Of a stretch of DNA of 64,000 bases, positions 4,899 to 38,185 are shown in pieces. Position numbers and translations under genes: made by a program. How positions within the stretch are numbered: the stretch's first letter is position 1; every line of letters starts with the position of its first letter. The stretch is from Mactra quadrangularis (Eukaryota > Mollusca > Bivalvia > Venerida > Mactridae), in assembly GCA_025267735.1 (NCBI GenBank), contig CM046311.1, positions 30,733,399 to 30,797,398 of the forward strand, in the 5' to 3' direction. Under the pieces are notes generated by a model. The model made no database searches. It was not told the DNA's origin and saw only the letters and a list, made by a program, of their open reading frames with translations.

Positions 4899-5556
4899 AG
4901 TAATACCGACTGTAACCTCGGACAGTCGGCCTAATACTGACAGTGACGTTTGGCAGAATAATCTTGCGGTGACATCAGACAGTAACTCTGACAGAGATAT
5001 AAGGCAGTAATACTGACAGTAACCACTGATGGTAAAACTGAGAATATCATCAGACAGTAATACTGACAGTAACACCAGACAGTTTCACGGACAGTGACAT
5101 CAGGCAGTTACACTGAAAGTGACATCTGACAGTTATACTGACTGTTTTATTTGCCGGTAATACTGACAGTGACACCAAACAGTATTGCTGACAATCAAAT
5201 CAGAAGTAATACTGACAGTGACACCAGACGGTATTACTGACAATCAAATCAGACAGTAAAACTGACAGTGACACCAGACAGTAATACCGACATTGACATC
5301 TAATAGTGTAATACTGACATTGGCATCAGACAGTAATACTGACAGTGACACCAGACAGTAATACCGACAGTGACATCTAATAGTGTAATACTGACATTGG
5401 CATCAGACAGTAATACTGACAGTGACACCAGACAGTATTACTGACATTTAAATCAGACAGTAATACTGACAGTGACACCGGGCAGTATTACTGACAATGA
5501 CTTTAGACAGTAATACTGACAGTGACATCAGACAGTAATACATACAGTGAACCTAT
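4899..5556. repeat. 25-bp minisatellite, locus 1
   Basis: About 26 degenerate tandem copies of a roughly 25-bp unit with core cagtaatactgacagtgac. Copies vary at gacatcag/gacaccag and at the length of the linking segment. The same unit in the same orientation forms a second array at 30243-30993. The array abuts the Tc1-like transposase remnant. Confidence 0.9.
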
Positions 5557-5569
5557 ATCGTCGTCTTGC

Positions 5570-6400
5570 ATGTGCGTAATCGGCGCTTTACTGCCTTTGA
5601 AAGTGCACTTCATGTTTGTGGAAATCATTGGCGTTCTATAAGTTCAAAACAGTAAGGATTCTATTACAAGAAGTTGGTGTAAGAGCACCACGCCCATACA
5701 TAGGTCTACACCTTAACCCTGCTATACGTCAGATTCGTATGGCCTGGGTCGCTGCACATGCTTCACGACGATTAACACTAAAGCAGTGGAGACAAGTGTT
5801 CTTTACGGACGAGTCTCGATTCTGCCTTTATCGATCTTTCGATCGTCAACGTGTCTACCGACGTCGTGGCGAAAGTTTTACGGAATTTTGCTTTGTATAG
5901 GGATATATGTTTGGGGGCGGTTCAGTAATGGCGTGGGGAGGAATATCACACGGGTTAAAATCACAATTGGTTGTTATTGATTGCAGTTTTACAGCAGCTT
6001 AGTATAGAGATGAGATCCTTCAACCCCATGTTATCCCTTTCTTACAGCAGCATATTCTACCCCCTCCCCCAGCAGCAGGTTAATCTAGGCCCTTCGTACT
6101 GCAAGGATTTGCCAAGTCTTTCTGGGAAATAACAACATTCAACTACTAGATTAGCCGCCATATAGCCCTGATTTGTCCCCGATTAAGTATCTTTTGGACC
6201 AGTTGGATAGCGGGTTCGAAAGCGCTAGTCACCCCTTGCTACTTGAGAGTAGTTGACCAGAGCTCTGATTGAAGAGTGGGACAACATCCCCATAAGACGG
6301 ATAAACGCTCCGATGAACTCATGGCCAAAAGAATACGGGCCGTGACCACAGCAAACGGCTGACACACAAGACATTGATGACTCAGATCAATATCAAATCC
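5570..6400 (+). pseudogene. Tc1/mariner-superfamily transposase remnant
   Basis: Translated pieces match the catalytic half of a Tc1-type DDE transposase in order. At 5660-5900 there is a segment including VFFTDESRFCLY, which carries the first catalytic Asp. After a frame change near 5880 comes GGGSVMAWGGIS (about 5908-5960), then YRDEILQPHVIPF (about 6003). Remnants of the SPDLSPIE-like region follow near 6170 and EEWDNIP at about 6272. Several frameshifts and stop codons break the frame, and no intact terminal inverted repeats were found. It is a dead copy that no longer encodes a functional enzyme. Confidence 0.88.
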
Positions 6401-8056: not shown

Positions 8057-8264
8057 ATGTCAGTTAATATTGATCATCAACAAGACATGCAGCAGCATTT
8101 AAATGACAATAAAACAAACAGAGCATCACCTAAGTCAGATAATGTAGATCAAAGTCGAGGTAACTGGTCAAAGAAGCTGGAATTTACCATGTCTTGTCTC
8201 AGTTATGCTGTTGGTCTAAGTTGTGTGTGGAGATTTCCATATATATGTTATAGAAATGGCGGAG
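8057..8264 (+). CDS. SLC6 exon 1: cytosolic N-terminus and TM1
   Basis: Encodes residues 1-69 plus one base of codon 70. A polar N-terminus is followed by GNWSKKLEF and TM1 (about 41-66). The usual GLGNVW is GLSCVW here. The donor is gtatgt. Confidence 0.93.
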
Positions 8265-11200
8265 GTATGTAATAAACGTTATTATGTTTTTTTAACTCGA
8301 CCATCCATACAACATTTTAGAAATGCTTTTATCGTTAATTTGAATAGGAAATTCAAGATATGACACATCTTTGCGTTGTATGTAAAACTTTTACCTAATA
8401 AAGAGTGAATTGTAACTACATATTTTTGTTTTGACCAAATGTTAAACACCAGCTGTATTCGCCAATTTATAGCAACGTTAAATTTCGTGTACACTTAATG
8501 CTCATGACCATATGCATTGTATTTCTTCGATTTATTTTACCAAATCTCTGATATTCAATCAGTTTACCATACTTTTTCTCTAATCTATGTTGCCAGGTAC
8601 ACTTGTGGTACATACGTGAATATGAATGTTGATTTCTTTATTCTATTTCGAACTGTACTTTCAGGTGCCTTTCTATTACCATTTATCATCATGGTAACTG
8701 TGATTGGAATTCCATTGGTATTTTTAGAATTATCCTTTGGACAATATGGCAGATCAGGTGTTGTATCCATTTGGAAAGCATCACCAATATTTGAAGGTAA
8801 GACAGATATTGACTTGAATTGTTTTAATTCATTATTAAAACTTTTTTCGTTTTGCTTCTAGCCCTCTCTCTACCCAGCCAACATTCTATATCGGCCCGAC
8901 ATCAAACCTATATGGTTTTCTATGACGGCCCGACGTCAGATTTAATCTCGGCTGCAAATAGGAATGATGTCGACCCGACATCGGTAGTACAATATCGGGC
9001 CGATGTCCACACAATATCGGCCCGATATTTCTTGCCTACATCGGGCCGACATCAAAACAATAGCGGTGTGATGTCAGTCAACAGTAGAAATTATTTTATA
9101 TCGGTCCGACAGCAAACCTATATGGTTTTCTATGACGGCCCAACGTCGGATTTAACCTCGGCTGCAAATAGGAATGATGTCGACCCGACATCGGTTGTAC
9201 AATATCGGGCCGATGTCTAAACAATATCGGCCCGATATTTCTTGCCTACATCGGGCTAACATCAAAACAATAGCGGTGTACATGTACATTAATAAACCGT
9301 GGAGTGAAAATAAACAGCCAGTATGCAAAAACAAACGGATTTGTTACAAAAAAGATTATAAAAGCAAATATTTAGTATATATTCTAACTATAAAGAGCAA
9401 ATGATAAATACGGCCTTGTTAAAGCATGTCGCGAAATTATGTTACAAATATTTTCAGCCATAATTATACTTTAAAATAAAACAAACAGATAAATTTTGTA
9501 TTTTTCAATCGCTCAAATGGTTAAAATGAAGTAATTAACAGTGTTTACACATTTGTTAAATCATCATTAGATCTACTTTTAAAAGAAAATAAACTTCACC
9601 TTCATCACATTCCTTTGACTTTTAGTTTTTTTGGTTGAAAGAAGGAATGCAGTGAATATTTGCCAGTTCTTCATTTAAAATAATATTATTATATAAGAGT
9701 GGTTTTTATGTACTTAAAAAATATTGATTTCAATTACAAACAACATTTCATTTCAAATCACAGCCAAAATTATTTTAAAATTCATACCAAAATGTACAAT
9801 TATTTGCTGCATGGTAATCAAGAAAACGCAATATCGTACCGTTGTCAATCCGATATACAAAATAGTTGCGTTTATTACCATGTAGGCCCGACGCAGACCC
9901 AATATACCTTTTTTGACGTTACATGAAATAGGGTTTGTGTGATTCTAGAAATTGAAATCATACACAGGACTATTTATTAACATAATTAAGTGAACAATAC
10001 AATTGCAGTTAGCATTTATCAAAATATTAAGTATGTCGGCATTGCAGCGGTCCGATGTCGGTCCCAAAATAGGCACATTTTGCTGGCACGACAGTACGTA
10101 AATATAATAAGTAGATAACAGAGGTGTTTCATTAGAATTAATTTATTTCATAATATTTTAACGATTTAACAATATATGGAGGTGTAGCTGAAAATGCACT
10201 ATCGTACTGATGTCAATCCGATGTACAAAATAGTTACATTAATTGATCATGTTGGCCCGACACAGACCCGATATACTTTTTTGATGTAACATGAAATTGG
10301 GTTAGTGTGCTTCTAGTAATTAAAATCATACACAGGACTATTTATTAACATAATTAAGGAAGCAATTCAATTGCATTTATAATTTTTCAAAATATTGAGT
10401 ATGTCAGCACTGCAGCGGTCCGATGTCGGCCTCAAGTCGGCACATTTTCCGACATGCCGACATTAATTGTATATCGGCCCGATATGGTCATGCTGGCTGG
10501 GTAGTGTTCTATTACAATCGAAAGAAAATTTTGTTTTTGATATCAATGTTTCGGGTTAGTTGATATAGATCTTGTTTTATTCCATGAATTGTTCTATTTT
10601 CTCTGAAATGTGTTGTTTGGGTTCCATTTTATAGATAAACAATTGAAATGCTTAGATAGTTCGGTCTACCGACAAGGAACCAGTGATCAAAAATAATGTA
10701 AAGAACTGCCCTATCAATGCTACCGAACAAGTGTGCATCGTATAAATTATACGAGTTTTGGTTAAAGAAATGTTCAAACTGAATGAACCAATTAATCATG
10801 CACTGACCATGGTTCCGAGTGGTATCGAAATCAACCTCAAAATTCACTTAAATAATAATATTTGCATTTGCACGTAAGCCAAACTGTTACAGAATGGACC
10901 ATTTAGTAACGAAAATATATCTGCACAAATAAATACTTGAAAACAAGTAAGTAAAATGATACATGTATAAAGTTTTTTGATAACTGATATATGCTACCTT
11001 TTATATTTCGTAGGAGTTGGTTGGGCCATGTTTTTGTCATCAGTATTTATTTCCATATACCTCAATATGATCATCGCTTACTCTTTCTATTACCTGTTTG
11101 CATCATTTTCGTCGATATTACCATGGCAGGAGTGTGGAGAGTGGAGTTCAGAAGGTAATCGTTTTGCCTGGTGTTTGCTGTCAATTAATTAATCATTCTA

Positions 11201-14200
11201 ATCGTCGCATGCGGTCCAAACAAGTTTTAATTGTATTGTATTTTATCCGAAATGTCAGTTATTTGCACTCGTTTCTTGGTTTCGCAAATAAATCGTCGAA
11301 ACTGTTAATAAAACACTAACTGAACGAATTTATAAACTGTGTAAACTTGTAATACATGAGCCAACTAGTACATTGTTATGAAAACAAGCCTGAACATTTT
11401 CATGACATTAAAGTGTACATGTATGTTTACCGGTATAGTTAGAGAAAAATAGTAGCCGCCCAGCTAGCTCAGTTGGTCGAGGGGTCGATTTATGGGCGGG
11501 GCATACTTTCGTGAAGCTTGGTCATGAAATTATTTCTACAGGGCCATTCTCCCTCCTACCAATGATTCCTAAATATGTAGGGCATTTGTCAGTCACTGAC
11601 GAAAGTATGTGCTTAGTAGTTGGTTAACAGCTAGATCTAGAGATTTAACCTTTCCAGGAACTGTGAATAGGTTGACTGACCCCTGTTGTATGACCTTTAC
11701 AGCGTGTTGCTACGGTGTTAAACCCAACAAAACAAACGAAAAATAGTATTGATGTATTAAAAATCAAAGCACTGAAAGAACTTCTGGGGAGATTTATCTT
11801 AAAACAATGTAACAGTTACAATGTTTATCCTCAAGATAATGTCATTGTTTTTGGCATATATACATAGCTTTGTCATACAACATTTGAATGACAAATTGTA
11901 CTAAAATACTTACATGTTTTACAAAAAGATTAAACCGAGACAACCAATGTTTAATTAATATACTCGGGCAGGATTCAGAAACATTCTAAATGTGTGGCAC
12001 ATTTTATATCATTCTATATAAACTCAACTTTCTAAATACACTGAACTAATGCACTATAATTTCCCATGATCAACTGTGTGTATTAAAAACACAGAGGCAT
12101 ATTCAATAGAAGTTCTTTATTTGTGATAATACGAATGAGACCAATACCGATTAAAAAACTTTTAATACTACATGTATTGTAAAATAATATTTTACATTTA
12201 GGCCTATTACACATATCAAGGCAAGTTTATAACCTAAATTGATGTCCCTCAAAGCTTTTCTTGTTTGTTAATCTAATGCAAATCCCAGGCTGCCGGCAAA
12301 AAAGTCCCCACAAAAGATATAGTTTACACATATATATGTGTTTATACAATATTTTTTGTGGGGACTGTTTTATGGCGGCAGCCTGTGATGCAAATGTAAG
12401 TGTCTTCTTACAGCTTGTTCAAATTCAAAAACAGAAAAAATCAAGAATTGTACTGATAACGGTGGAGTGTTTTGTTTCGACAAATGTTTCTATCAGGATA
12501 AAGTTTCATCAAACACATGGAATAATGTATCACAATGCCCTAGTGGTAATCTTATATTACCAAGTGATGACTACTTTCAGTAAGTAAGATTAGATTTTTT
12601 TATTATTACTGGACACTAATGTTACATCCAGGGGTATGGTATACAAGTAAAAAATTGCTGCGAAATGCAGCAATGTGATTGTCACGGCAAACAAAAAAAA
12701 CACTTAAGTATAATCTTAAGGTAACTCAAAATAGCGTTGTGTTGAATTGTCATGTTAACTGTTAAGGATTTTCAATATTTTAAAGTAACTTGTTATAAAA
12801 CGTATTCCTGTTTATACGTAAAGGAAACTAAGAATTTTGCTCATAACAATGAGACATGAATTCTGAACGAAGTTTAAAGTTGTGGTAAACACTACGGACC
12901 AAATTAACAGAGAAATACTTTGCCTTTAAATATATATGCTGTAACATGTTTGACAGAAGTTTCTTCTATTGATTTATATAAGCATTTTCAGTTCTAATTA
13001 TCTTTATATCAAAAGTGCTCAACAGTGCTTAAATATCAAAATGACAAATATCGGTTTTAAGTTCTTTTATTCTTCTTTAGTAAATATATAGGTAAACTTT
13101 CACTTGTATTTATTGATATAAGATTAACACTTGGTTGTTGTTGGTGTTCCGGTGGCATCACTTAAAACTCACTATTTTTTAAAAACACTATGTACACAGT
13201 TCATATTAAAAAAAGCAACACTCTAGTTTAAAATTATATACAAGTCTTTCTAAAATGAACACTCTATAAAGTTAACTTGTTCATGACTTACATAATTGGG
13301 TTAGAGAAGTTATTGGTAGCTTAAACATATTGGTCGAAATTTATCAGGTCCCCCAGTCCAAATTTGTTAATGCGGTTTTTAAAGGAATTGAGAGAGGGAG
13401 CATTAACAATTGATTGTGGTAGATTATACCAAGGATCTGCAACCCTCTGGCTATAAGAGTGTTTTCTAATTTCATTTTGACAACGGGTTTTGAAGATTTT
13501 GAATGAATTGCCTCTTGTGTTCATTCAATTTTAATCTTCAATTAAATAAATTGCTTACATCATGATGATAAATCTACAACGGTCATTCATTCAGCCATTC
13601 ATTGACACCTGGCCATGGCACTACGTTCTCACAGTTAACTCCAGCTGTGAATATCGTCTTCTAAGTAGTATATATTATATACAAGCGTGTGGCAGATAAT
13701 ATTGCGCAATAATACAAATAACTTTTCTCCGTACACAGAATGAATAATGTTTGATTAATGTAAAGAAACATTAAATACAATGTATCATAATTTTAGGTAT
13801 TTCTTTTAATTATTTTTTTCCAATTCATCTTCGTTTGATAGTATTCATATTTTTCTACTGCACTATTTTTTGTGGCGCATTTACTCATTGTTAGGTGTTG
13901 TTCGTTTTTTCCGCAGAGCGCTGACATAGAAAGGATTTTTCTTAAATCCTTCCAAAAATATGCGGACCATTACGCTAATGAAAAGACATGTCCTTAAATG
14001 TTATCTTTTGATTAAACTATCCCCCTTACCCTGGTTTATAGTTAATAAGAGTATTAAGTATTAAATACACCAAATTACTTATAATGCATTGAATTTCTCA
14101 ATTAAAAAAGTGAACGTTTTTGACAAGTTTGACCGTCCAAATCACTTGTACAGTACTTTGCAGGATAGAAACAATTTTAGTACAGGAAAACCCTGCATGT

Positions 14201-17200
14201 ACCTTGCATTATCATAATTATTTTAAATCTAATGTCTTGTTAGAAATCTTTCTATTTTTACTTTTGTCCTATTGTAGTAAGTCCGTGTTAAAAATAACGG
14301 ATGGTATAAACAAAATGGGATCAATCAATTGGGAACTGGCTTCGTGTTTATTGTTGGCTTGGGTAATTGTATGTATCTGTCTTGCTAAAGGAATAAAATC
14401 AAGTGGTAAAGTAAGTAAAGTATTAAATCAAAGAATCTTCCTACTACAGCTTTTATAATATAGTAACGTCATGTATGTATCTATTTTATATTGTGCATTT
14501 GTATTTTGAAACTGAAATGTGCAAGGCAGTAGTAGTAAGGAAATTCACCAAATTAAAACAAATCATTATCTTTGACCTCACTGAGATAGAGCAGTGTTTG
14601 TTTTGAGAGACCATTAAATTTACTATAATTCTGTCATCAAAATATGTATCAGTATTTAAGTACATAAAATCAAAATTGACGGTAAATAAAACAAGAGCTC
14701 CGCTGGGCGGGGCATTATACGCCCGTGTGCAGTCCATGCTGTGTTCTATCTCATATAAAGTCCCTGTGACCTTGACCAATGACCCCAGGATCTCAGAATA
14801 GGTCCCATTCTTAACAGGAGGGCTATCCAAAGCAAAGATTTTGAGAACCTAGGTACAGCCATGGTTGATTTATCACCGACACAAAGTTTTCCCATACAAA
14901 CTTCCAGTGACTTTGACCCTGGGGCCTCAGAACCAAAAGTTCTCGCCCTTGACCCAAAGAGTATTGATACATAAAATTTGGTGATCTTAGGTAAAGTTGG
15001 TTGTTGGACAAGGTTTTTCCTCATGATTTTTCTTTTGACTTTAACCTTTAACACAGGGACCTAAAACCAAAGGGGCATATGCTAGACATTAAGGCTACCC
15101 TTAAATAAGATTTGGAAAACCTACAATGTAGGTACAATTATTATTGAGTTACTGTCCGGAAAATGTTTCAATATGAATTAAGTCCCTGTGACCTTGACTT
15201 TTGTCCCTGGGGTTTCCAAATCAAAAGAGAACATCAAATACCAAAGAGCTATCAACACATTACATCTTGACAAATGGGCTGATCCACATAAAATTTGGTT
15301 AACCTAGGTACAATCATTGTTTAGTTATTGTCCGAACAAGGATTGTCCATATGATGCCCCTGTGACCTAGATCTTTGACCCAGTTTTGACCCAAAACCAA
15401 TTGGGAACATCCTTAACACATGGGCTACCCTCACATAAAATTTGGTGAACTAAATTCATTTTACTTATTAAATATAGCATTATTTCCATGGTCTGCCATT
15501 TTGACTTTGTTAACATATTGATTGAACATTTGAAGTCTCTGCTTGGTAATTTGATATCTTCTGGATGATGGTTTAAACTTGACCCAGGGGCCCCAAAATC
15601 AATAGGGAACATCCTTGACACATGGGCTACTCTCACATGAAATTTGGTGAACTTAAGTGCAGTCATTGTTGATTTACTACACATACAATGTTTTTCAATA
15701 TGATGCTCCTGTGACCTTGACCTTTGACCCAGGGGCCCTAAAACCAATAGGACATAACCATGACACATGGGCTACTCTCCTAAAACAATTTAGTGAACCT
15801 AGGTACATTGGTTGTTCAGTTATTGTCTGGACAAGGTTTTTCCATATGATGCGTCTGTGACCTTGACCTTTGGGTCTGGGGCCCCAAAACCTATTGGGAA
15901 CATCCTTAACACAAGGGCTACATTCACATAAAATTTTATGAACCTAGGTACAGTCCTTGTTGAGTTATTGTCCAAACAAGGTTTTTCAATATGATGCCTC
16001 TGTGACCTTGACCTTTGACCCAGGAGCCCCAAAACCAAAAGGGCATATCCTTGACACAAGGGCTACCCTCACATAGACTTTAATGAACCTAGGTAAATTG
16101 GTGGTTCAGTTATTGCCTGGACAAAAGTTTCATTGTTTGCCATTTTGACTTTATAAACATATTGATAGAACATATGAAGTCACTGCTTGGTAATTTGATA
16201 TCTTCTGGTTGAAGGTTTATACTTGAACCTGTTTCCCCAAAACTGATAAGGCACATCCTTGACACATGGTCTACTGTCACATGAAATTAGGTGAACTTAG
16301 GTACAGTCATTGTTGAGTAATTACCCAGACAATGTTTTTCAATGTGATGCCCCTGTGACCTTGACCTTTGACAAAGGCGCCCCAAAACCAATAGGGCATA
16401 ACCTTGACACATGGGCTACTTTCATATAAAATTTAGTGAACCTAGGTACATTGGTTGTTCAGTTATTGTCTGGACAAGGTTTATCCATATGATGCCTCCG
16501 TGACCTTGACCTTTGGGTCTGGGGCCCAAAAACCTATTGGGAACATCCTTGACAAAAGGGCTACCTTCACATAAAATTTTGTGAATCCAGGTACAGTAAT
16601 TGATGAGTTATTGCCCAAACAAGGATTTTCAATATGATGCCCCTGTGACCTTGACCTTTGACCCAGGAGCCCCAAAACCAATAGGGCAAAACCTTTACCC
16701 AAGGGCTACCCTCACATAAAATTTGGAGAACCAAGGTACATTGGTGGTTCAGTTATTGTCTGGACAAGTGTTTCATTGTTTGCCGTTTTGACTTTATAAA
16801 CATATTGATAGAACATTTGAAGTCACAGCTTGGTAATTTGATATCTTCTGGTTTAAGATTTAAACTTAACCCTGTTTTCCCAAAACTGATAAGGTACATC
16901 CTTGACACATGGGCTACTCTCACATGAAATTTGGTGAACTTTGGTACAATCATTGTTGAGTAATTATCCAGACAATGTTTTTCAATATGATGCCCCTGTG
17001 ACCTTGACCTTTGACCCAGGGGCCCCAAAACCAATAGGGCATAACCTTGACACATGGGCTACTTTCACGCCAAATTTAGTGAACCTAGGTACATTGGTTG
17101 TTCAGTTATTGTCTGGACAAGGTTTTTCCATATGATCCCTCTGTGACCTTGACCTTTGGGTCTGGGGCCCAAAAACCTATTGGGAACATCCTTGACACAA

Positions 17201-20200
17201 GGGCTACCTTCACATAAAATTTTGTGAACCTAGGTACAGTAGTTGATGAGTTATTGTCCAAACAAGGATTTTCAATATGATGCCTCTGTGACCTTGACCT
17301 TTGACCCAGGAACCCCAAAACCAATAGGGCATAACCTTTACCCAAGGGCTACCCTCACATAAAATTTGGAGAACCTAGGTACATTGGTGGTTCAGTTATT
17401 GTCCGGACAAGTGTTTCATTGTTTGCCGTTTTGACTTTATAAACATATTGATAGAACATTTTGAAGTCACAGCTTGGTAATTTGATATCTTCTGGTTTAA
17501 GATTTAAACTTAACCCTGTTTTCCCAAAACTGATAAGGTACATCCTTGACACATGGGCTACTCTCACATGAAATTTGGTGAACCTAGGTACAGTCATTAG
17601 TGAGTTATTACCCGGACAATGTTTTTCAATTTGATGCCACTGTGACCTTGACCTTTGACCCAGGGGCCCCAAAATCAATAGTGCATATCCTTGACACATG
17701 GGCTACTCTCACATGAAATTTGGTGAACCTAGGTACATTGGTGTTTCATTTATTGTCCGGACAAAGTTTTTCCATATAATGCCCCTGTGACCTTGACCTT
17801 TGAACCTGGGGCCCCATAAACCTATAGGGCGCATCTTTGACACATGGGCTACTCTTACATAAAATTTGGTGAACCTAGGTACAGGCGTTGTTGAGTTATG
17901 GTCCGGACAAGGTTTTTCAATTTGATGTCCCTGTGACCTTGACCTTTGACCCAGGGGCCCCAAAACCGATTGGGAACATCCTTGACACATGGGCTTCTCT
18001 CACATAAAATTTGGTGATCCTAGGTAGATTGGTTGTTAAGTTATTGTCAGGACAAGTTTTTTTCCCATATGATGCCACTGTGACCTTGACCTTTGACGCA
18101 GGGGCCCCAAAACCGATAGGGAACATCTTTGACACATGGGCTACTCTTACATTAAATTTGGTGAACTTAGGTACATTGGTGGTTCAGATATTGTCCGGAC
18201 AAGTTTTACCTATTTTAAGTCCCAGTGACCTTGACCTTTAACCCTGGGGTCTCAAAATCAATAGGGAACCTCCTCCACCCAAGGGCTATCAACACATAAA
18301 ATTTGAGGAACCTAGGTTCATCCTTTCTTGAGTTATCATCCGGACAAGCAATTGTCCACGGACGGACAGACGGACAGACGGACAGACAGACAGACGGACA
18401 GACGGACAGACGGACAACAGCATAACATAATACGACCGTTTTTTCAAAACGGGCGTATAAAAAATCTTATAATAATCTGATTTTTTGCATGATAATAAAA
18501 TTTGTTAAAGTTGATACCTTCCAAAGTAATCTGGTTTAGTACAGTCATTAAATTTGATAGGTTCAAAGAACAAGGTTGTTAGGTTTCATTATTTTTAGTT
18601 GCATATTTTGTTTTTGATTTTCTGTTTAAACGTCTGGTAAATTATTGAAAATTTCACTCTGGTAAGATAGCCAGTGAGACAGAGCTTCGGTTAGTTGAGA
18701 GTTAGAGATGAATTATTAGGTTTTAGATTCAGTATGATTTCTCTAAATTGTGTTTAAATTTAATTTTCATTTTGATTATAATAAACTAACCACTATACTA
18801 TTATATAATGTTTATGTGTTTTATTACACTGAACGAGTATACGTAAATTCTCCTTCATTTAGATAAAGAAATTAAGCGACTTATGGTATGAAGGATATAT
18901 ACGTGTAATTCGTTTCATTAGTGACTACATTTCATATCTATATGATGTTAATGTTATCTGTTACAGGCTGCGTACTTCACTACTATTTTCCCATATTTGG
19001 TACTGAGTATTTTAGCAGTACGAGGCTTAACTTTAAAAGGTTCTACTGATGGGATTGTTTATCTTTTCAAGCCACAATGGCATAAACTACTAGAGGCAAG
19101 GGTAAGTGCGTATATTTTTCAAATTTCTGTAAAATTCTTCTGTATTTGTTCGTTGTGAACTGCGTAAATGAACGAACCATTTCTTGTATGACAATTCATT
19201 TAAGAAATAGTTGGGATTAACAACGAAAGTAGTTCAAAATACATGTACTTCAAGTCTATTGAAAGAATGTATTTTGACAGAAAATTTAAGAATTGCAAAC
19301 TTATCGTTTTGTTACTGCGCAGTTTAAATTGCTAGAGCTATAATAATACAAGAACTGTAAATTTAGCTTGTGAAAGAATTTCAATACTGTTTATGCTGCT
19401 CAATAAAACAGTTTTATGCCAACTTTCCTTTAAATAATCTATTGTTTTCAAACATAAATATTTTCGCTTTTGACATCCCAATTCATAAGTTGCAAACACA
19501 AGTTGTCGTGTCGTTCTTAGGAATTATTAACTATATTTAATATTCACATTTTTACACAGACGTCGTATCAGATGCATTAAGTTGATCAGCTGAAAAATCA
19601 AATGTTGTTAATGAATAGTCAAAATAGGCAATAACCATGACATATGAAGTGAAATGTGTTTCAATCATTCTTATGTTGTGTATATACAAGTAATGGTTTC
19701 TATACAGGTTTGGAGTGATGCGTCAGTCCAAGTAATTTATTCACTGTCACCATGCTTTGGAGGACTCATAACTTTGTCCAGTTACAATAAATTCAACAAT
19801 AACTGTTTCAAGTATGTTATTTACATATTAAATGTTATGATTTGGGTGTTCATATATATAACTGATATATCTACTTAATCATCGCAAAGAGTCACGTTTT
19901 TCTTAGCGTCGACAACTAGATTTTTATCAATTAGATTAAATAAGATGACTGTCAACCATAATTTTATCATTGCATCAGTAAATGACACTTTTGCATGAAC
20001 AGTCAATATATGTAATATATTCGATATAATGTGACTCATTTGATGGTTTGGTTAAGTTTTTTAAACGATATTGACACGATTTGCTATCCGGTGAAGTGGG
20101 TTTCATTTTTTGTTGTATATACGTCCTCATAAATCTCACATATTCTTACACGATCGCTTAAACGATCATACACGGAATTGAGATTCGTGCAAGTTTTACA

Positions 20201-23200
20201 ATGTTTTAAAAACCATACTCGACTTTCACGAATACACTCGAATGTCCAGATAACAACTCGGATCAAAACAAGGCTGGTTCGATTGTATGAACGGTTTACA
20301 CGGATGGCCAATAGGGCTGCAACGATTCGATTCGATACATCGAAACTCGACTGCGAGGGCGGCGATTCGATTTCGATTCGGGACCCACGAATTTCGATTC
20401 GATACTGACTTTTAAACGTATCTACATAAGTTATAAGCATAAAAGCAAAAGGGCACCTAAAAGACACTAACTCCCCGCAACGGTTATTTCCCTTTATTAA
20501 ATCAAGTAGCAAGGCGTTATCTGCAGTATATTAAGAGCTGCATTTTCTGAAACAATTTATGTTTCATGTTGTATATATAGATACGTTTTAGTTGATATTA
20601 CATTAATGATACATTTTTGCGACCTTTATATTCGTACCCAGTCCATTTCGTACTAAAAGAAGCAATCTTAATTTAGCAGATTTTCGGGTTTCATGTGAAT
20701 TTAATTTGAGTAACACTTTTATTTTATCAATAATAAATAGTTTTTATCTCAAATAAATGTATAAATGCATATTTGGAGTAAATAATTCTAATAGATGAAT
20801 CGAATCGAAAAAAATCGAATCAAAAGAAAAAATATCGAATCGCATCAAATCGACTTTCCGGTGAATCGTTGCAGCTCTAGTGGCCAACTGTATAAGCCAT
20901 GTGTTCTGTGTGAGACAGGCTTAAGAGCTTTCTGATCATATTTTTTTTATTTCTATTGATTGTTTTGTTATCTCTTAACCTGACTATTAATATTATAACA
21001 TATCACCACAACTTGTATCACGTGTTCTCTGTATCATAGGGACGCTGTTGTTATTTCTTTAATGGTGTGTTTGACCTCTGTATTTTCTGGTATGGTGATA
21101 TTTAGTATTATAGGGTATATGGCTACAGAGTTAAACCAACCTATAAGTGAGGTAGTACAACCAGGAGTAGGGTTAGCGTTTATTGTATATCCTGATGTTG
21201 TAACGAAGCTTCCGATATCTCAACTCTGGTCTGTACTATTTTTCACTATGATAATAACTTTTGGATTAGGATCTCTGGTGGGTTTATTGATTTTTTACAT
21301 TAGTTTTCCTCAAAATAATTGCGCATTTTACGACTACCTATATAGAGACTGCTAATACCAAATATTAACAATAGCGGATTTGGTTCTCTAGTGTGTATAG
21401 TTTAGTCCCTGATTCACAAGGTGCAATCAGTACATGAAGAATAGAGTTGGTAACAACTCAAAATATGTTTATGTTATTTAATAGTGGTTCATGATCGGTA
21501 TTTTTTAACAGTCTTACTTTGTATAAGTTCCTATACCAATATTGTAATAGAGTAATGTCAAGATTTAATACAATACTTCTTCGACATTCGAACCAACATA
21601 TATTTTCAAAAACTTCTAGTTCTTATTTTGCAATCCTAGAGCTAACTTCCAAATGTTAAATGTCCATCGCTCAACAGTCAAACTTGTGTCAAATGCAAGT
21701 TTATGCACTTAAAATATGAAACATGATTAATTATAAAGTCTGGTATCGCCCATCATGCGACAGTGTTTTGTTACGTTTGTGTAATTCTAGTATTTATCTA
21801 TAATGAAATACAAAATATAAAAAGTGCGTAAAAATTGACCCCGACCTGACCTTTATGCAAGAATATTCATTACATTGAATACGAGTGTAGTATTAAAGCT
21901 CGATTACACCGTGGCCGTGAGGATTATGTGTATAAACATACTTCTATAATTTTACAATCGCCGCCAAAGTGTAGAATAGGCGTGGTTCTGTAGCGTGTTC
22001 AATTACACAAAACGTTACAAAACGTTGCATAACGATACATTCGGAACTCCTCGGCCATTCACTGCGAATATCCTAATCTAATACACAAATATGAGATCGT
22101 TGAGGCAATGAGTGATGTTTCAAAATTTACGGACTAAAAACGAAACATCACTCAATGCCTAAACGATCATATATTTGTTTACTTTAACACCGGTAGTTTC
22201 AAAATAGCGTCTAAATATGTCCGAGGTTATTCGAAACGAATGGCCGAGGTGTTCCGAATGTATCGTTATGGAACGTTTTGTAACGTTCGCGGTAACTGAA
22301 CGCAGGGCAGATTTTCGTCGGGATATGTGTAGATAATTATTAGATGCAAATGTGACAGGTCAGGTCGGGGTCAATATTTACGCACTATACATTTTTTATA
22401 TATGATAGAGGGTTTTATTTCATTATACACACATAAATACACAATGTCTGACATTTTGCAAACCGCAATTAGTCACAAAAAGATGAAGTAAAATACACTG
22501 TACTACCTTTTGTCAAATACCCAAATATATCCTTTTCTCAATCGTCTGTTTAAAGAAATTTGCTTTCTTGATTACGTGTTGGCATTAAGATGGGTATACG
22601 ATTCAAAGTAACAACCAATTTTACACCAAACATGTAACTAGGAGAGTGTGAATTTATTTGTTAAACAAAATACCGTTGTAAATTTCTATTGGTCCATGTA
22701 GCTATCATCATAACTTTTTCAGACATCTATTGTGAACACAGTACATACAACTCTTCTGGATAGATTTCCAAAACTGTTTCATAAAACTCATAAGCGAAAA
22801 AGTTTGTTACTTTTTGGAATATCATGTTTCTGTTACTTTATTGGGTTACCATTTACCTTTCAGGTAAATGAAATATATTATTTATATCATTATAGCAACA
22901 TGACTGTCTTGTTAATAACTTTTTAGAGCATTAATTGGATGAAGTGTTTCACGAGCACATCATTGGTTGTAAATATAGGCATTTAAGTAAACATATTTAA
23001 TTTTTTCAACGTGTAAATTTATTGTTCAACAACTGCTTCTTTGCTTTGACTGTATCTATTACTCTATTGACACATCGAATGTGCGAACAATATGCATAGC
23101 ATTACAATATTTGCGAACAATATGCATAGTATTATAATATTTGCGAACAATAAGCATAGTATTACAATATCTGCGAACAATAAGCATAGTATTACAATAT

Positions 23201-26200
23201 CTGCGAACAATACGCATAGTATTACAATATTTGCGAACAATACGCATAGTATTACAATATCTGCGAACAATACGCATAGTATTACAATATTTGCGAACAA
23301 TACGCATAGTATTACAATATTTGCGAACAATACGCATAGTATTACAATATCTGCGAACAATAAGCATAGTATTATAATATTTGCGAACATTACGCATAGT
23401 ATTACAATATCTGCGAACAATACGCATAGTATTACAATATTTGCGAACAATACGCATAGTATTACAATATTTGCGAACAATACGCATAGTATTACAATAT
23501 TTGCGAACAATATGCATAGTATTACAATATTTGCGAACAATTTGCATAGTATTACAATATCTGCGAACAATAAGCATAGTATTACAATATCTGCGAACAA
23601 TACGCATAGTATTACAATATCTGCGAACAATAAGCATAGTATTACAATATCTGCGAACAATTTGCATAGTATTACAATATTTGCGAACAATACGCATAGT
23701 ATTACAATATCTGCGAACACAACGCATAGTATTACAATATCTGCGAACAATACGTATAGTATTACAATATCTGCGAATAATACGCATAGTATTACAATAT
23801 TTGCGAACAATACGCATAGTATTACAATATTTGCGAACAATACGCATAGTATTACAATATTTGCGAACAATACGCATAGTATTACAATATTTGCGAACAA
23901 TACGCATAGTATTACAATATTTGCGAACAATACGCATAGTATTACAATATTTGCGAACAATACGCATAGTATTACAATATTTGCGAACAATACGCATGCC
24001 TGTCACGCTAATTTTTATGTTTTCATCATCATGTAATTTGTGTTTTTATGTTGTCGATATCAAGATTAATTCATAATTAATATCATTAAATTTTCATTTT
24101 AATGTTTGTCATATATTTATTTCAAAGAGATCATCTGATATACATGTAATTTCTTATTTGGTTTAACAATGTTGTTGCATTTTATAAAGGGTGGAATATA
24201 TGTCATTCAACTATTTGATAATTATGCAGCAGCATATTCTGTGTTAGTGATAGGAGTTATGGAGTCTGTGGCTGTGTCGTGGGTGTATGGTAAGTGAACA
24301 TTGCTAAATAATGTACTTTAATTTCAAGAAATATGTATTATCTGTAAACAAACTGATTCCATTAAATTTATGCATTTAGGTTAAACAATAGTTTTACACA
24401 GTTAAATTGCTTTTGAATGAAAATACAGAACAGTACAAAAGGCATGCAGTACAGAAGAAACATTGAAACGAAAAGTGTCAGTAGTTTGGTTGAAAAAGTA
24501 TATAACACCTCCGTACCAAGATTCAAAATCACATTTTGTTCCATAAATTTCACAGAAAGGAAATATTATAGAATTATCAACAAAACGCAATTTTTGATGC
24601 AGGATCACTATGAATAATGTATGGCTACGAGTATTTTCTAATTGAGAATTCTATTAATTAATTATTTAAATTGTACAGGTGGAGATCGATTCTTGAATAA
24701 TCTAGAAGCAATGCTGGGATACAGACCAAGTTATATATGGGTGTGGTGTTGGAGAATAGTTATCCCAGTTGGCCTATTAGTAAGTCCTTCTTGTAGTTGG
24801 CCTATTAGTAAGTCCTTCTTGTAGTTGGCCTATTAGTAAGTCCTTCTTGTAGTTGGCCTATTAGTAAGTCCTTCTTGTAGTTGGCCTATTAGTAAGTCCT
24901 TCTTGTAGTTGGCCTATTAGTAAGTCCTTCTTGTAGTTGGCCTATTAGTAAGTCCTTTTTGTAGTTGGCCTATTAGTAAGTCCTTCTTGTAGTTGGCCTA
25001 TTAGTAAGTCCTTCTTGTAGTTGGCCTATTAGTAAGTCCTTCTTGTAGTTGGCCTATTAGTAAGTCCTTCTTGTAGTTGGCCTATTAGTAAGTCCTTCTT
25101 GTAGTTGGCCTATTAGTAAGTCCTTGTAGTTGGCTTATTAGTAAGTCCTTCTTGTAGTTGGCCTATTAGTAAGTCCTTTTTGTAGTTGGCCTATTAGTAA
25201 GTCCTTTTTGTAGTTGGCCTATTAGTAAGTCCTTTTTGTAGTTGGCCTATTAGTAAGTCCTTTTTGTAGTTGGCCTATTAGTAAGTCCTTTTTGTAGTTG
25301 GCCTATTAGTAAGTCCTTCTTGTAGTTGGCCTATTAGTAAGTCCTTCTTGCAGTTGGCCTATTAGTAAGTCCTTCTTGCAGTTGGCCTATTAGTAAGTCC
25401 TTCTTGTAGTTGGCCTATTAGTAAGTCCTTCTTGTAGTTGGCCTATTAGTAAGTCCTTCTTGTAGTTGGCCTATTAGTAAGTCCTTCTTGTAGTTGGCCT
25501 ATTAGTAAGTCCTTCTTGTAGTTGGCCTATTAGTAAGTCCTTGTAGTTGGCCTATTAGTAAGTCCTTCTTGTAGTTGGCCTATTAGTAAGTCCTTCTTGT
25601 AGTTGGCCTATTAGTAAGTCCTTCTTGTAGTTGGCCTATTAGTAAGTCCTTCTAGTTCTTATAATGAAACTGTAGCTCAATAGATGAATACTTTTCTTTT
25701 TCGAAATGAGTATTCATCATTCATGTGTATATTAGCTGAAGAAATATCATTTTGAAGGTTCGTGATTTTAGGGTTTCATATAATTGATTAAACTTTCAGC
25801 ACTCATTTCAGAACATTTAATCCGTTCATTTGTAATTTATTATCATGTGTTAATACAAATTTTAAAACATTCAAGAGTATGTATTTTATTTTATGTAAGA
25901 CTAAACCAATTAATGATATAATTGATATAATATATGATATATAATATAAATGATATAATCTTTTTCTACACAGACAATTTTGGTATCTACATTGATTGAT
26001 TTTACACCAACTGAATACTATACATTTGTATTTCCTGCCTGGGCTGATGGGATTGGTTGGATGATTTCAATGACTTCGATTATGGCTATACCATTTGTTA
26101 TGATCTTCAAAGTTATCAAACACAAGTATAATAGCGGTTGCAGCATTATGAAAGTACATATATGAATTTTTATTGTTTATTTGTTTTAAATCCACACTTT

Positions 26201-26972
26201 CGTGTCGTATGTATTTGTGCCTGGGGACGTGATAAACAATGTTTAAGGTTAATTGTGTCACGACCCTATAAAAAATAAGTATATTTTGCTACCGGTGTTT
26301 ATAGCTACTGGACAGTACATTAAAACATGGATGATAAGTATATTATGTAGAACCAATTTTAGACATCAATCATGAATAGCACTTTGTAATAATACAAATT
26401 TAATAGATAAAATACTCATATCTTGAATCAAAATTATGTATAATACATTGAGTATGTCTTTTCTACTAGCAACAGTGAATAAATTAATGTCAAAACAATG
26501 AGCTTGGCGATGAGCCACTTGTAGATAAATTACAAGTTTCGTACCAAAGTTTGTGGTTGTTTCCTAATTATAATTATCTTTTCTTTGCATACACTCTTCT
26601 AAAACATTAAACATATTTTTAAATTAATATATATTGAAGACATTTAAATATGTTTATCCAACATAAATAAATGACCATGCTTAATGGGAATTAGTTACGT
26701 TTCTTGCTCAACATGGCACGACTAAAGTATTGTAGAGCAAGGCAAGCAACACTTTCTATAAATCAAACATTTTTTCACACATGTATTTGCAGAGTGTTAT
26801 GTTTTTGTGCAAGGCCGATGCAGAATGGGACGCAATAAAGGAAATTCATGTAGGTAAACGTGATGAGTTAGACCTAGTGACAATAGTAGGTCGTAATTCG
26901 TCTTGGTCTTTATCAAGTATTGAAGTTGGTTCTACTAGAGAGATAGGTAATACAGTACAGACGAGAATGTAG
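8057..26972 (+). CDS. SLC6 family Na+/Cl- dependent transporter (complete, 13 exons)
   Basis: Coding exons: 8057-8264, 8665-8796, 11014-11154, 12414-12579, 14278-14410, 18967-19101, 19708-19811, 21040-21277, 22723-22863, 24190-24289, 24679-24779, 25974-26153 and 26793-26972. All use GT-AG sites, phases match at every junction, and the sum is 1959 nt (652 aa plus stop), a normal SLC6 length. SLC6 signatures appear in order: TM1 [16 protein letters not shown]2 [13 protein letters not shown], a Cys- and N-glycosite-bearing EL2, TM6 [22 protein letters not shown], and TM10 [26 protein letters not shown]. The family consists of plasma-membrane symporters for amino acids and neurotransmitters. The TM2-TM3 region looks most like glycine/amino-acid members, but the substrate is unknown. 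Position 98 of SERT is Gly here, as in amino-acid rather than monoamine carriers. Unusual residues are Cys56, Val349 and Gly417 at sodium ligand positions. A cag acceptor just before the ATG (8042) suggests a 5' UTR exon upstream. Confidence 0.93.
8665..8796 (+). CDS. SLC6 exon 2: TM2
   Basis: Joins in phase 1 to complete NGGGAF. Encodes TM2 and the GQYGRSG loop; the Tyr corresponds to the chloride-binding Tyr121 of SERT. Acceptor is actttcag, donor is gtaaga. Confidence 0.93.
8871..10503. mobile_element. 1.6-kb TIR element rich in TCGGCCCGA motifs
   Basis: The ends are inverted: tacccagccaacat at 8871 and tgctggctgggta ending at 10503, possibly with a TA target duplication. The interior is full of atcggcccgacatc and atatcgggccgat palindromic words. 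Two long internal direct repeats are visible: about 8885-9055 against 9100-9275, and about 9825-10070 against 10190-10435. No transposase is seen, so it is non-autonomous. It starts 75 bases after SLC6 exon 2. Confidence 0.8.
11014..11154 (+). CDS. SLC6 exon 3: TM3 and start of EL2
   Basis: Joins as E-GVGWAMF. Encodes TM3 and ends in [12 protein letters not shown], the start of the large extracellular loop with its first cysteine. Acceptor is tttcgtag, donor is gtaatc. Confidence 0.92.
11455..11741 (+). mobile_element. SINE family A copy
   Basis: The head gccgcccagctagctcagtt has an A-box-like sequence, though the tRNA region is shortened. The body runs through ggcatactttcgtgaagctt and ctccctcctaccaatgattc to cggtgttaaacccaacaaaa. 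Related copies lie near 44915, 46131, 52160, 52443, 59655 and 60970. It sits in SLC6 intron 3. Confidence 0.8.
12286..12385. repeat. 100-bp imperfect hairpin / micro-MITE flanked by ATGCAAAT
   Basis: The arms begin with CAGGCTGCCG at 12286 and end with CGGCAGCCTG at 12385. A second block (AGTCCCCACAAAA against TTTTGTGGGGACT) also pairs. The tip is an AT-rich palindrome around acatatatatgt. An 8-bp direct repeat, ATGCAAAT, flanks it (about 12277-12284 and 12388-12395), as expected for a hAT-type target duplication. It ends 28 bases before SLC6 exon 4. Confidence 0.8.
12414..12579 (+). CDS. SLC6 exon 4: extracellular loop 2
   Basis: Joins as E-A to begin [18 protein letters not shown]. Encodes a Cys-rich EL2 with N-glycosylation sequons (NCT and NVS) and ends in LPSDDYF, the usual entry to TM4. 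The donor is gtaagtaag, in phase 2. Confidence 0.9.
13321..13524 (-). pseudogene. Non-LTR retrotransposon reverse transcriptase C-terminal fragment
   Basis: The minus strand encodes about 67 residues including [31 protein letters not shown] and [11 protein letters not shown]. These match the C-terminal tail typical of animal LINE-type polyproteins. The frame ends at a stop, and nothing of the RT core or endonuclease is nearby, so it is a 5'-truncated copy inside SLC6 intron 4. Confidence 0.75.
14278..14410 (+). CDS. SLC6 exon 5: TM4
   Basis: Joins as [19 protein letters not shown], followed by TM4 and AKGIKSSGK, the standard link to TM5. The donor is gtaagt, in phase 0. Confidence 0.93.
15485..18300. 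repeat. Higher-order tandem repeat (about 643 bp) of 146-bp monomers
   Basis: Monomers of about 146 bp each carry tgaccttgacctttgaccc followed by ggggccccaaaacc. A divergent segment starting tttgccattttgactttata recurs at about 15495, 16137, 16780 and 17423, so three monomers plus a roughly 205-bp spacer form a 640-645 bp higher-order unit present about four times. Open frames on both strands here reflect the repeat and are not genes. Confidence 0.85.
18355..18417. repeat. GGAC/GACA microsatellite
   Basis: A run of acggacagacggacag-type 4- and 8-base units, the simple-repeat tail of the surrounding element. A similar tail occurs at about 53812-53860 in another element. Confidence 0.9.
18967..19101 (+). 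CDS. SLC6 exon 6: TM5
   Basis: Encodes [13 protein letters not shown], then [20 protein letters not shown], the conserved TM5-EL3 segment. The acceptor is tgttacag and the donor gtaagt, phase 0 at both ends. Confidence 0.94.
19708..19811 (+). CDS. SLC6 exon 7: TM6
   Basis: Encodes [20 protein letters not shown] and [10 protein letters not shown]. It keeps the Gln and Ser corresponding to SERT Gln332 and Ser336 of the chloride site. The donor is gtatgt, in phase 2. Confidence 0.94.
20312..20879. mobile_element. hAT-type MITE with GATTCGAT-rich ends
   Basis: The inverted ends tagggctgcaacgattc (20312) and gaatcgttgcagctcta (ending 20879) match except one base. The flanks atggccaa (20304-20311) and gtggccaa (20880-20887) are a 7-of-8 target duplication typical of hAT elements. 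Subterminal regions are rich in tcgattcgat words. No transposase is present. It lies in SLC6 intron 7. Confidence 0.85.
21040..21277 (+). CDS. SLC6 exon 8: TM7 to TM8
   Basis: Joins as [14 protein letters not shown] (TM7) and runs through EL4 to FGLGSL in TM8. Two sodium/chloride ligand positions differ from the family norm: Val349 in place of Asn and Gly417 in place of Asp. The donor gtgggt is weaker than the others in this gene. Confidence 0.94.
21823..22386. repeat. 564-bp foldback element (near-palindrome)
   Basis: The outer arms are agtgcgtaaa...ttgaccccgacctgacc at 21823 and the inverse ending cgcact at 22386. Middle arms pair aacgttacaaaacgtt and cattcggaac...ctcggccattc with their inverses near 22225-22290. 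The innermost arm pairs ggcaatgagtgatgtttc with gaaacatcactcaatgcc around 22115-22160. It is non-coding and lies in SLC6 intron 8. Confidence 0.85.
22723..22863 (+). CDS. SLC6 exon 9: end of TM8 to TM9
   Basis: Encodes [19 protein letters not shown] and then TM9 ([20 protein letters not shown]). Acceptor is tttttcag, donor is gtaaat, in phase 0. Confidence 0.93.
23090..23998. repeat. 30-bp minisatellite, about 30 copies
   Basis: The unit contains gcgaacaatacgcatagt and attacaatat. Copies differ by scattered substitutions but hardly ever by length. Because 30 is divisible by three and the unit lacks stops in most frames, frames of over 300 codons stay open on both strands. This is a repeat effect, not a gene. 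It lies in SLC6 intron 9. Confidence 0.95.
24190..24289 (+). CDS. SLC6 exon 10: TM10
   Basis: Encodes [20 protein letters not shown] and then [10 protein letters not shown], the TM10 signature. The donor is gtaagt, in phase 1. Confidence 0.94.
24679..24779 (+). CDS. SLC6 exon 11: TM10-TM11
   Basis: Encodes [20 protein letters not shown] and TM11 up to VGLL. The exon end ttggcctatta and its gtaagt donor are the first unit of the following tandem array. Only the first donor (24780) keeps the correct reading frame. Confidence 0.94.
24769..25654 (+). repeat. 28-bp minisatellite built from the exon 11 splice donor, about 31 copies
   Basis: The unit is 11 bases of exon end (ttggcctatta) followed by 17 bases of intron start (gtaagtccttcttgtag). 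Copies are nearly identical; a few have cttttt or a 3-base deletion. Each unit recreates a consensus-like 5' splice site (gtaagt), and its ccttcttgtag also resembles a 3' splice site. The array starts at the coding sequence itself. Confidence 0.95.
25974..26153 (+). CDS. SLC6 exon 12: TM11-TM12
   Basis: Encodes [20 protein letters not shown], then [19 protein letters not shown] (TM12) and the start of the cytosolic tail. Acceptor is ctacacag, donor is gtacat, in phase 0. Confidence 0.93.
26793..26972 (+). CDS. SLC6 exon 13: cytosolic C-terminus and stop
   Basis: Encodes [19 protein letters not shown] and a polar tail ending QTRM-stop. It follows a tttgcag acceptor in phase 0. Ser/Thr density is high in the last 35 residues. 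Confidence 0.88.
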   Translation, partial: SVMFLCKADAEWDAIKEIHVGKRDELDLVTIVGRNSSWSLSSIEVGSTREIGNTVQTRM

Positions 26973-30242: not shown

Positions 30243-30993
30243 ATACTGACAGTGACAACAGACAGTAATACTGACAGTGACAACAGACAGTAATACTGAC
30301 AGTGACATCAGACAGTAATACTGACAGTGACATCAGACAGTAATACTGACAGTGACATCAGACAGTTATACTGACAGTGACATCAGACAGTTATACTGAC
30401 AGTGACATCAGACAGTTATACTGACAGTGACATCAGACAGTAATACTGACAGTGACAACAGACAGTAATACTGACAGTGACATCAGACAGTTATACTGAC
30501 AGTGACATCAGACAGTAATTCTGACATTGACATCAGACAGTAATACTGACAGTGACATCAGACAGTAATACTGACAGTGACATCAGACAGTAATACTGAC
30601 AGAGACATCAGGCAGAATTACTTACAGTGACATCAGACAGTTATACTGACATTGACATCAGACAGAAATACAGCCTGGGTGTCAGACAGTATTACCAACA
30701 GTGACATCAGACAGTTATACCAACAGTGACATCAGGCAGTAATACTAACATTGACATCAGACATTAATACTGACAGTGACTTCAGACAGTAATACTGACA
30801 GTTAAACTGACAGTGACTTCAGACAGTAATACTGACAGGGACATCAGACGGTAATACTGACCATCAAATCAGACAGTTATACTGACAGTGACATCAGACA
30901 GTAATACTGACATTGACATAAAACAGTAATACTGACATTGACATCAAACAGTAATACTGACAATCAAATCAGACAGTTATACTGACAGTGACC
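30243..30993. repeat. 25-bp minisatellite, locus 2
   Basis: About 30 tandem copies of the same unit as at 4899-5556 (core cagtaatactgacagtgac), in the same orientation. They are more homogeneous than at locus 1, especially in the first half. Confidence 0.93.
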
Positions 30994-36580: not shown

Positions 36581-37949
36581 AAAAATGGAGATAATATAAT
36601 TTTGTACAATTATAATTTAATAAATTCAAGGACTATAAAACTAGCGTTCTCAGGTAGATTGGTCTGAAGGTCTAACTTGATTCTGTAGACGAACATTCTG
36701 ACCAGGTTTGATAGATTTGATGGAAGCAATCTGACAAATAGAATCTAATACCACGTATGTCTCAAAGTCGAGCCAGCTACTATGGCTGTACAAATTGTAT
36801 GACTCACCTTAATTAGATGTAAAACAGTATGCCAAACTTTCCTTAAAAAAATGTCAAAGACCTACCAATAGACTCGGAGATGCAACAAAATTTCAATTTT
36901 TCAATTTTTTCAGTTTTTTTTCCAAAAATTCTATTTCCAGTATAACAGGGGTCACCATGAAAACAGTTTACAATAAAATGTCATTTAAATCATGTTTAAA
37001 TAGATAAAAACATGTGAAACATTATCTTTGATGTAAAAAAAACAAACTACAGACGTTCAAAACATGTATCGTAGCATCAAGATATTTACAATGTCTAAAA
37101 ATTGAACAAATAAATAAAAAATGAGGTAGGAACACAAGAAATAAAAACAAACACAAAAATAAACAACACAAAAACCCGAGACATTGGGTTTCAACAAAAA
37201 ACATGGAAGAAAACCAAGTGGGAACTAAAAAATATTAAATACTTAAAATAACAGTAACTAGAGAAAAAGTCAAAACTTGTTTAAAAATCAGATCAAATTA
37301 TGTACCAGTATTTTCATATGTAAATATAATAAAAGAAAAGGGGGTGGGTGGGGTATTTTAAATAGAAAAATATATATATCTGCCCTTGTTTTTTTATAAT
37401 TTAAGTTAAATGCCTTTTATTAACAAAGCAATAAATAGTTTAACTTGATAAAAAACAATAGTTTTAGGGGAAAACAAAATTAATACAGAAAGGTAATTAA
37501 CAGCAAAAAAATTAACAAAAAAATAAATTATTTTCCAGATAGATTCAACTTTGAGTACACTGAATATTTTAAACCCATTTATAACATGAAAAATAAAATA
37601 AGCATAAAATAGAAATCTAAGTTCTTTTTGAAAAAAAATGACTATGACTATTGAGACAGACCAAAATTTCAAAATGGCTGCCACTGATTTCTTAATTTAT
37701 TTTGTGTGTATTAACCCAATAGAGGAAAAGGAAATTGCCATCACTTTTTACTCACAACCATAATAAGAATAAATATAAACAACCAGAAAAAGTACATAAA
37801 TCATAATTTCAATACTAAAATGTTAATTATAACAACTTTAACTTGTTATTAAGGAAGTAAAAAACCCAAGGAAATAGTTTTCAAGGTCAAAACATCAGAC
37901 ATACATGTATACAGATAAAGAAAAAATGTTTTACATTGATGCTATATAT

Positions 37950-38185
37950 AGTAACATGACACTATAAATAGTCACATAAAACTAAATTTAGTAACATGAT
38001 ACTATAAATAGAATTATGAAACTAAATTTAGTAACATGACACTATAAATAGTAACATGACACTAAATTTAGTAACATTACACTATAAATAGTAGCATGAA
38101 ACTAAATTTAGTAACATGACACTATAAATAGTAACATGACACTAAATTTAGTAACATGATGCTATAAATAGTAACATGGTACTAA
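37950..38185. repeat. Tandem repeat of taaatttagtaacatgacac
   Basis: About 11 short units of 20 bases alternate ctataaatagtaacatgaca and ctaaatttagtaacatgaca. Similar ctaaatatagtaacatg units recur at about 38820-39060 and at 41975-42065, the last inside the final betaglycan intron. Confidence 0.85.

Follow-up and report, generated by a model that had tools for sequence, protein, structure and literature searches.

The minisatellite of human 6-16 / IFI6 is said, in the title of Turri 1995, to contain multiple splice donors. Two of its downstream repeat units act as donors and give rise to three mRNA species and to isoforms, as stated in the portion of PMC4526556 drawn on here. For human ABCA7, the cited parts of De Roeck 2018 (PMC5954066) describe a VNTR in intron 18 with a 25-bp unit, which opens with the two bases of the exon 18 donor, and with about 12 to about 427 units. 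The donor of the second unit is used there, and one unit retained, at about 2%, a value read from the order of two figures in that paper, and this use is unaffected by array length; in-frame skipping of exon 19 rises and total expression falls with length, and the authors report, in the same parts, no length effect on decay. Minisatellites at exon-intron boundaries are also known from human segmentally duplicated genes, where they have 4 repetitions on average and are able to give rise to new introns (PMC2812944, in part), and UBC has been described as a tandem array of dual-specific splice sites, in frame, in which AGGT serves as donor and acceptor (PMC10809524, in part). In the VNTR-splicing association described for miR-137, the donors lie outside the repeat in the part of PMC6692358 considered. 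Among the literature matches listed, no mollusc donor-bearing minisatellite was found by title or by the start of the abstract, which is a weak negative.

We analyzed a window of 64,000 nt, the whole stretch of Mactra quadrangularis DNA presented here, in which a minisatellite runs across the end of a coding exon and the start of the following intron. The main features are as follows.

24767 to 25653, + strand: minisatellite across the exon 11 / intron 11 junction (Tandem Repeats Finder and unit count)
8057 to 26972, + strand: SLC6 glycine-transporter-like gene with 13 exons (homology model)
24679 to 24779, + strand: exon 11, 101 nt, entered in phase 1 and left in phase 0, ending ...P V G L L (gene model and homologues)
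25974 to 26153, + strand: exon 12, 180 nt, symmetric, phase 0-0 (gene model)

The host gene encodes 652 aa, in a model built by joining exons on homology and not from RNA, and GT-AG borders are found at 12/12 introns. A preliminary 591-aa model matched Pfam SNF (PF00209) over residues 34–577 with an E value of 3.1e-186, the solved structures of GlyT2 in the PDB at 1.1e-155 and, as the best protein match, a Mactra antiquata protein with 67% identity. These three matches bear out the SLC6 family assignment of the initial annotation, and its placing of the end of exon 11 at 24779 is shared by the gene model and the homologues. The Mactra match, from a genus of the bivalve order Venerida, points very likely to a heterodont bivalve. 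With an E cut-off of 0.001 the homologue set comprised 1750 proteins; the comparisons used the best 120 of them.

The minisatellite has a period of 28 nt, 31.9 copies and 97% matches according to Tandem Repeats Finder, and spans 887 nt in total. A count of its core gave 32 copies, 31 complete and one truncated, of the consensus TTGGCCTATTAGTAAGTCCTTCTTGTAG or near variants. The unit is 28 nt long in 29 cases and 25 nt in two (units 13 and 28), the terminal copy measures 23 nt, and the consensus is reproduced exactly by 20 of the 31 complete units. The first of the two short units is listed here.

25105 to 25129, + strand: unit 13, 25 nt by a 3-nt deletion, with the same sequence as unit 28 (25522 to 25546)

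The donor hexamer GTAAGT is intact in 32/32 copies and so is the 9-mer TTAGTAAGT. A 17-nt core pattern, with up to three mismatches allowed, occurs 32 times in the window, always within the array, against 0.14 occurrences expected in shuffles. The repeat finder, the core count and the shuffle test thus agree that the tandem donor array first noticed at the end of this coding exon is real. Its copy number had been put at about 31, without interruption; the array itself stands, and the count is amended to 32, with two units of 25 nt and a short last one. The 28-nt periodicity sets in at 24767, which places the last 13 coding bases of exon 11 inside the array, instead of the last 11 that had been assigned to the unit. 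The exact 28-mer unit is present neither in viral contigs (0) nor in prokaryote genome contigs (0), two collections that do not cover animals, so that these zeros carry little weight; Rfam returned no match at gathering thresholds and a tRNA search found none.

Tandem arrays are often misassembled, and one internal pattern bears on the length of this one: a block in which a 25-nt unit comes after five consensus units appears twice, at units 8–13 and 23–28, and could be biological or an error of joining. The variant units are nevertheless placed irregularly (7, 13–19, 21–22 and 28), unlike a simple loop over one read. We regard an assembly error in the array length, by collapse or expansion of a junction repeat that is itself real, as unlikely.

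The clam array is a donor-bearing tandem array at an exon-intron junction, of the ABCA7 / IFI6 kind: its 28-nt unit, present 32 times, includes the authentic donor, and a donor is found in every unit (32/32). It is distinct from ABCA7 in that the unit carries coding bases, the ABCA7 unit starting at GT whereas the clam unit also takes in the 13 bases of exon 11. Both arrays combine a short unit, tens of copies, an authentic donor inside, a next donor that shifts the frame and a next exon that is in frame when skipped. The ABCA7 VNTR is GC-rich, polymorphic and studied in RNA, whereas the clam array is known here from the DNA of one assembly. Minisatellite repeats supply alternative donors in IFI6 as well, but the downstream donors give isoforms there, whereas in the clam array the full frame comes from donor 1 only. 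The repeats of human duplicated genes resemble it in having units of about 30 bp at an exon-intron boundary and in lying in a gene with several paralogues; they average 4 copies and may make new introns, whereas about 32 copies extend an existing intron in the clam. UBC likewise consists of tandem copies of a unit that bears splice sites, but its units keep the frame and use AGGT, whereas the 28-nt clam unit has no AGGT and loses the frame. To all appearances the clam array is an ordinary minisatellite, and it is its place that is unusual and rare.

To define which donors are compatible with the protein, all 32 were joined in silico to exon 12. The positions that matter for this enumeration are the following.

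24780 to 24785, + strand: donor 1 (GTAAGT), the sole one of the 32 that yields the full open reading frame
24808 to 24813, + strand: donor 2 (GTAAGT), the use of which adds 28 nt and a frameshift
25642 to 25647, + strand: donor 32, the last GTAAGT, 332 nt before exon 12
24822 to 24824, + strand: in-frame TAG, hit by transcripts of donors 3 to 32

The 652-aa frame was obtained from donor 1 only, in agreement with the initial annotation. The latter had also led transcripts of the second donor to the TAG at 24822; this cannot be so, because the exon defined by donor 2 ends at 24807, and its shifted frame stops instead in exon 12, after 550 aa. The remaining donors, 3 to 32 (30/32), all stop at the TAG after 547 aa. 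The stops produced by donors 2 to 32 lie 154–997 nt upstream of the last junction. Nonsense-mediated decay is expected for stops more than about 50 nt before the last junction, and these stops fall in the range where it is expected.

The homologous proteins were compared at the same place. Of the best 120 of 1750 homologues, 0 have an extra residue where exons 11 and 12 meet and 119 have residues on both sides, a count that takes in Mactra models whose residues after the junction are those of exon 13. In an earlier alignment of the best 120 of 1750, the 31 residues around the junction had exactly 31 counterparts in 104 proteins; 11 proteins had 34 there and 5 had fewer. Six short peptide patterns, corresponding to read-through or microexon forms, had no match in the best 120 of 1750 homologues.

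The unit also contains a possible acceptor, so that the array had at first been read as 11-nt microexons alternating with 17-nt introns. On a small weight matrix made from the gene's own 12 acceptors, those of the 31 units reach 4.1–6.7, within the range of the real acceptors (−1.3 to 9.2, leave-one-out), and three microexons would preserve the frame; of the 862 other AGs across the gene, 76 equal or exceed a typical array acceptor. At 31/31 array acceptors, however, another AG lies 11–14 nt upstream with no A in between, and therefore no branch point obeys AG exclusion. The matching interval of the real acceptors contains 4–33 As in 11 of 12 cases, the remaining one (12414) having a single A and an AG 15 nt upstream. 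A ratchet site for recursive splicing consists of an AG directly followed by GT, and stepwise splicing through the array finds none: AGGT is absent, the unit acceptor AG being followed by TTGG. The pseudo-introns of 17 nt, moreover, are far below the 43–56 nt of the human introns called ultra-short in the cited part of PMC4463651. Because of the failure of AG exclusion and of this intron length, the microexon chain finds no support, and we consider splicing of the array as 11-nt microexons and 17-nt introns, or stepwise through it, extremely improbable.

The donor of the array had been called strong. Its U1 duplex energy, calculated against the U1 5' end, is −5.6 kcal/mol, which ranks it only 10th among the 12 donors of the gene: the intron side, GTAAGT, is consensus, and the exon side, UUA, pairs poorly with U1. 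The weakest of the 12 is the donor of exon 12 (−3.0). The array could be conceived as a sink or decoy for U1 snRNP, in which U1 is retained on 32 sites in 0.9 kb, so that splicing is delayed or premature polyadenylation blocked. GT sites at least as good as the array donor do reach a density of 36 per kb inside the array versus 3.5 per kb elsewhere in the gene (64 of 1176 GT sites), and two U1 snRNPs can sit on one pre-mRNA (PMC8724738, in part). Against this, the pairing amounts to only −5.6 kcal/mol, and intron 11 has no AATAAA and one ATTAAA, which leaves U1 little to suppress. Surplus U1 is, furthermore, reportedly purged in the passage from complex E to complex A, going by the title of Hodson 2012. 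Such a sink is in our judgment very unlikely.

We consider it probable that the array is a minisatellite that arose where exon 11 meets intron 11, through slippage or unequal exchange, with the donor caught in it by chance, and that it is nearly neutral because donor 1 is chosen by exon definition. Slippage or unequal exchange would have created the array including the donor. The sequence AGTT is found at the left edge of the array (24767–24770) and again just past its right edge (25654–25657), which agrees, as we infer from the two edges, with an initial slippage event at 4 nt of microhomology.

Exon 11 would then be recognized by exon definition, favoring the donor nearest to the upstream acceptor, since the surrounding introns are long: intron 10 has 389 nt and intron 11 has 1194 nt, and 332 nt separate the last donor from exon 12, all above 250 nt. 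The change from intron to exon definition has been placed near 250 nt in the cited part of the work of Carranza and colleagues (PMC9225289). In their five human-cell minigenes, which had 365-nt introns and a pair of identical donors (CAG/guaagu), the upstream donor was used exclusively, and in near-equal human donor pairs between long introns the upstream one was preferred (PMC9225289). The same source reports that weakened identical donors led to exon skipping in larger constructs and that, over all human alternative donor pairs, the downstream one was preferred in about 60% before strength was controlled (PMC9225289). If exon definition favors the donor nearest to the acceptor in the clam too, donor 1 would be used almost always, the other 31 would leave with intron 11 and the array would be close to neutral. 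This choice of donor 1 is suggested by human-cell rules together with the protein comparison. The weakness of the array donor on its exon side (UUA; −5.6 kcal/mol, 10th of 12) counts against the near-neutral reading. Rare use of donors 2 to 32 would give early-stop transcripts, which nonsense-mediated decay should clear. By analogy with human ABCA7, the most plausible side effect would be that, mildly and depending on array length, output is lost or exon 12 is skipped.

Should splicing use donor 1 and none of the 31 identical donors that follow it at a spacing of 28 nt, the locus would be a natural test of proximity in exon definition outside vertebrates, and the competitors would be many more than in the two-donor minigenes (PMC9225289, in part).

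A rival reading is a length-dependent splicing brake, in which a longer array lowers output and increases exon 12 skipping, so that copy number tunes transporter dosage, whether selected or not. ABCA7 offers a precedent in its rise of exon 19 skipping and fall of total expression with length (PMC5954066, in part). Exon 12, symmetric like the in-frame exon of ABCA7 (180 nt, phase 0-0), could be skipped in frame, with 60 residues lost and a 592-aa frame left, and its donor is the weakest of the 12 (−3.0). On the other hand, the clam array of about 890 nt lies close to the lower limit of the 298–10678 bp spanned by ABCA7, and the protein-binding motifs in the unit that the ABCA7 authors suggest as the cause need not exist in the clam unit (both from parts of PMC5954066).

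Models of Mactra proteins appeared to bear on the same question. Among the best 120 of 1750 homologues there are 8 such models, and in three of them (P0008, P0030 and P0054) exon 11 apparently runs straight into exon 13; in the per-exon count over the 120, P0008 was not scored as lacking exon 12, the aligner having put its exon 13 residues there. Of the same 8 models, six are also without exon 9, four without exon 3 and three without exon 6, and these exons are all symmetric. The loss of exon 12 was consequently discounted as evidence of skipping: since several models lack exons 3, 6 and 9 as well, it is probably an annotation error, which explains the exon-12-less models better than a splicing brake does. 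We judge the brake unlikely.

As a separate observation, the paralogue models P0007, P0008, P0027, P0030, P0054, P0059 and P0070 of Mactra antiquata are without symmetric exons 3, 6, 9 or 12 in varying sets, and this variation probably reflects a systematic annotation fault.

Nor do we give much more than a slim chance to a segregating splicing rheostat, in which copy number would set the diversion to donors 2–32 or the skipping of exon 12 and provide a heritable, continuously variable transporter output. If it were true, the 32 identical natural donors would be a direct measuring device for donor choice, and any dependence of output on copy number would make the locus an invertebrate counterpart of the ABCA7 disease VNTR. 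The regulatory reading of the array, as a U1 sink or a copy-number brake, is possible but overall weak.

The near-neutral origin by slippage raises the question of how surprising the position at a junction is. Two other tandem arrays lie in introns of the same gene.

23082 to 23997, + strand: 30-nt minisatellite, 30.5 copies, 916 of the 1326 nt of intron 9 of the SLC6 gene (Tandem Repeats Finder)
15579 to 18348, + strand: arrays with a 145-nt period, within 2770 nt of intron 5 (4556 nt) of the SLC6 gene (Tandem Repeats Finder)

When nine arrays, our own pick from 57 Tandem Repeats Finder rows, were dropped randomly in the window, leaving out of account selection, which should remove most such events, at least one of the 24 splice junctions of the SLC6 gene was covered in 78% of trials. 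With the three arrays of the gene dropped randomly within it, a junction was covered in 98% of trials; both placements treat the 2770-nt stretch of intron 5 as one array, which weighs heavily in the second figure. Random placement thus often covers a junction, so the position of the array is not improbable, and its persistence is the notable part. The variant units represent about 4–6 events, none of them in the 9-nt donor core, with a chance probability of roughly 0.1–0.2 by hand count, which therefore provides no evidence that selection maintains the donors.

RNA structure was considered as a sign of function and rejected. The array with short flanks (24740–25690) folds at z −6.9 relative to 20 dinucleotide shuffles. 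Arrays built from ten copies of a shuffled unit folded at least as well in 86 of 300 cases, and because of this the apparent structure of the array is explained as a result of repetition. The accessibility of the donor 9-mer is 0.025 at donor 1 and higher at 6 of the 31 other donors, so that local accessibility fails to single out donor 1 among the 32.

In the transporter itself, the segment TM1 (within 8057–8264) carries Ser-Cys at residues 55–56, where nearly all homologues have GLGN, and its Gly-Asn pair is therefore absent from the transporter of the window. Residue 56 is Asn in 111, Ser in 7, Thr in 1 and a gap in 1 of the best 120 of 1750 homologues, and it is Ser in 7 of the 8 Mactra models. 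The Asn of TM1 contacts sodium in SLC6 transporters, and on this sequence difference the ion coupling of the subfamily in the window may differ.

Further repeats and frames were observed in the window. The unit of the minisatellite in intron 9 (23082–23997) is a multiple of 3, which opens a 321-aa frame on the + strand that is probably meaningless. In intron 5 (15579–18348), the 145-nt units form successive blocks whose starts are 644–656 nt apart, a higher-order pattern. The arrays at 4932–5550 and 30243–30992, 25 kb apart, consist of one and the same 25-nt repeat (TAATACTGACAGTGACATCAGACAG, up to rotation), as if carried by a dispersed element. Frames at 5601–5897 (+), 13324–13524 (−) and 60578–60715 (+) resemble by eye Tc1/mariner transposase and LINE fragments; none of the three reaches Pfam at 0.01. 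Very acidic, Asp-rich peptides are encoded by the frames 3498–3806 (+) and 47281–47604 (−), neither of which has a Pfam match at 0.01. A frame at 46437–46727 (−) weakly matches the ZP-C domain, with an E value of 0.0033 that does not reach the curated cut-off, and is perhaps an exon of another gene. The 40-nt repeat at 37942–38185 has an unusually self-complementary unit: 0 of 300 shuffled-unit arrays fold as well.
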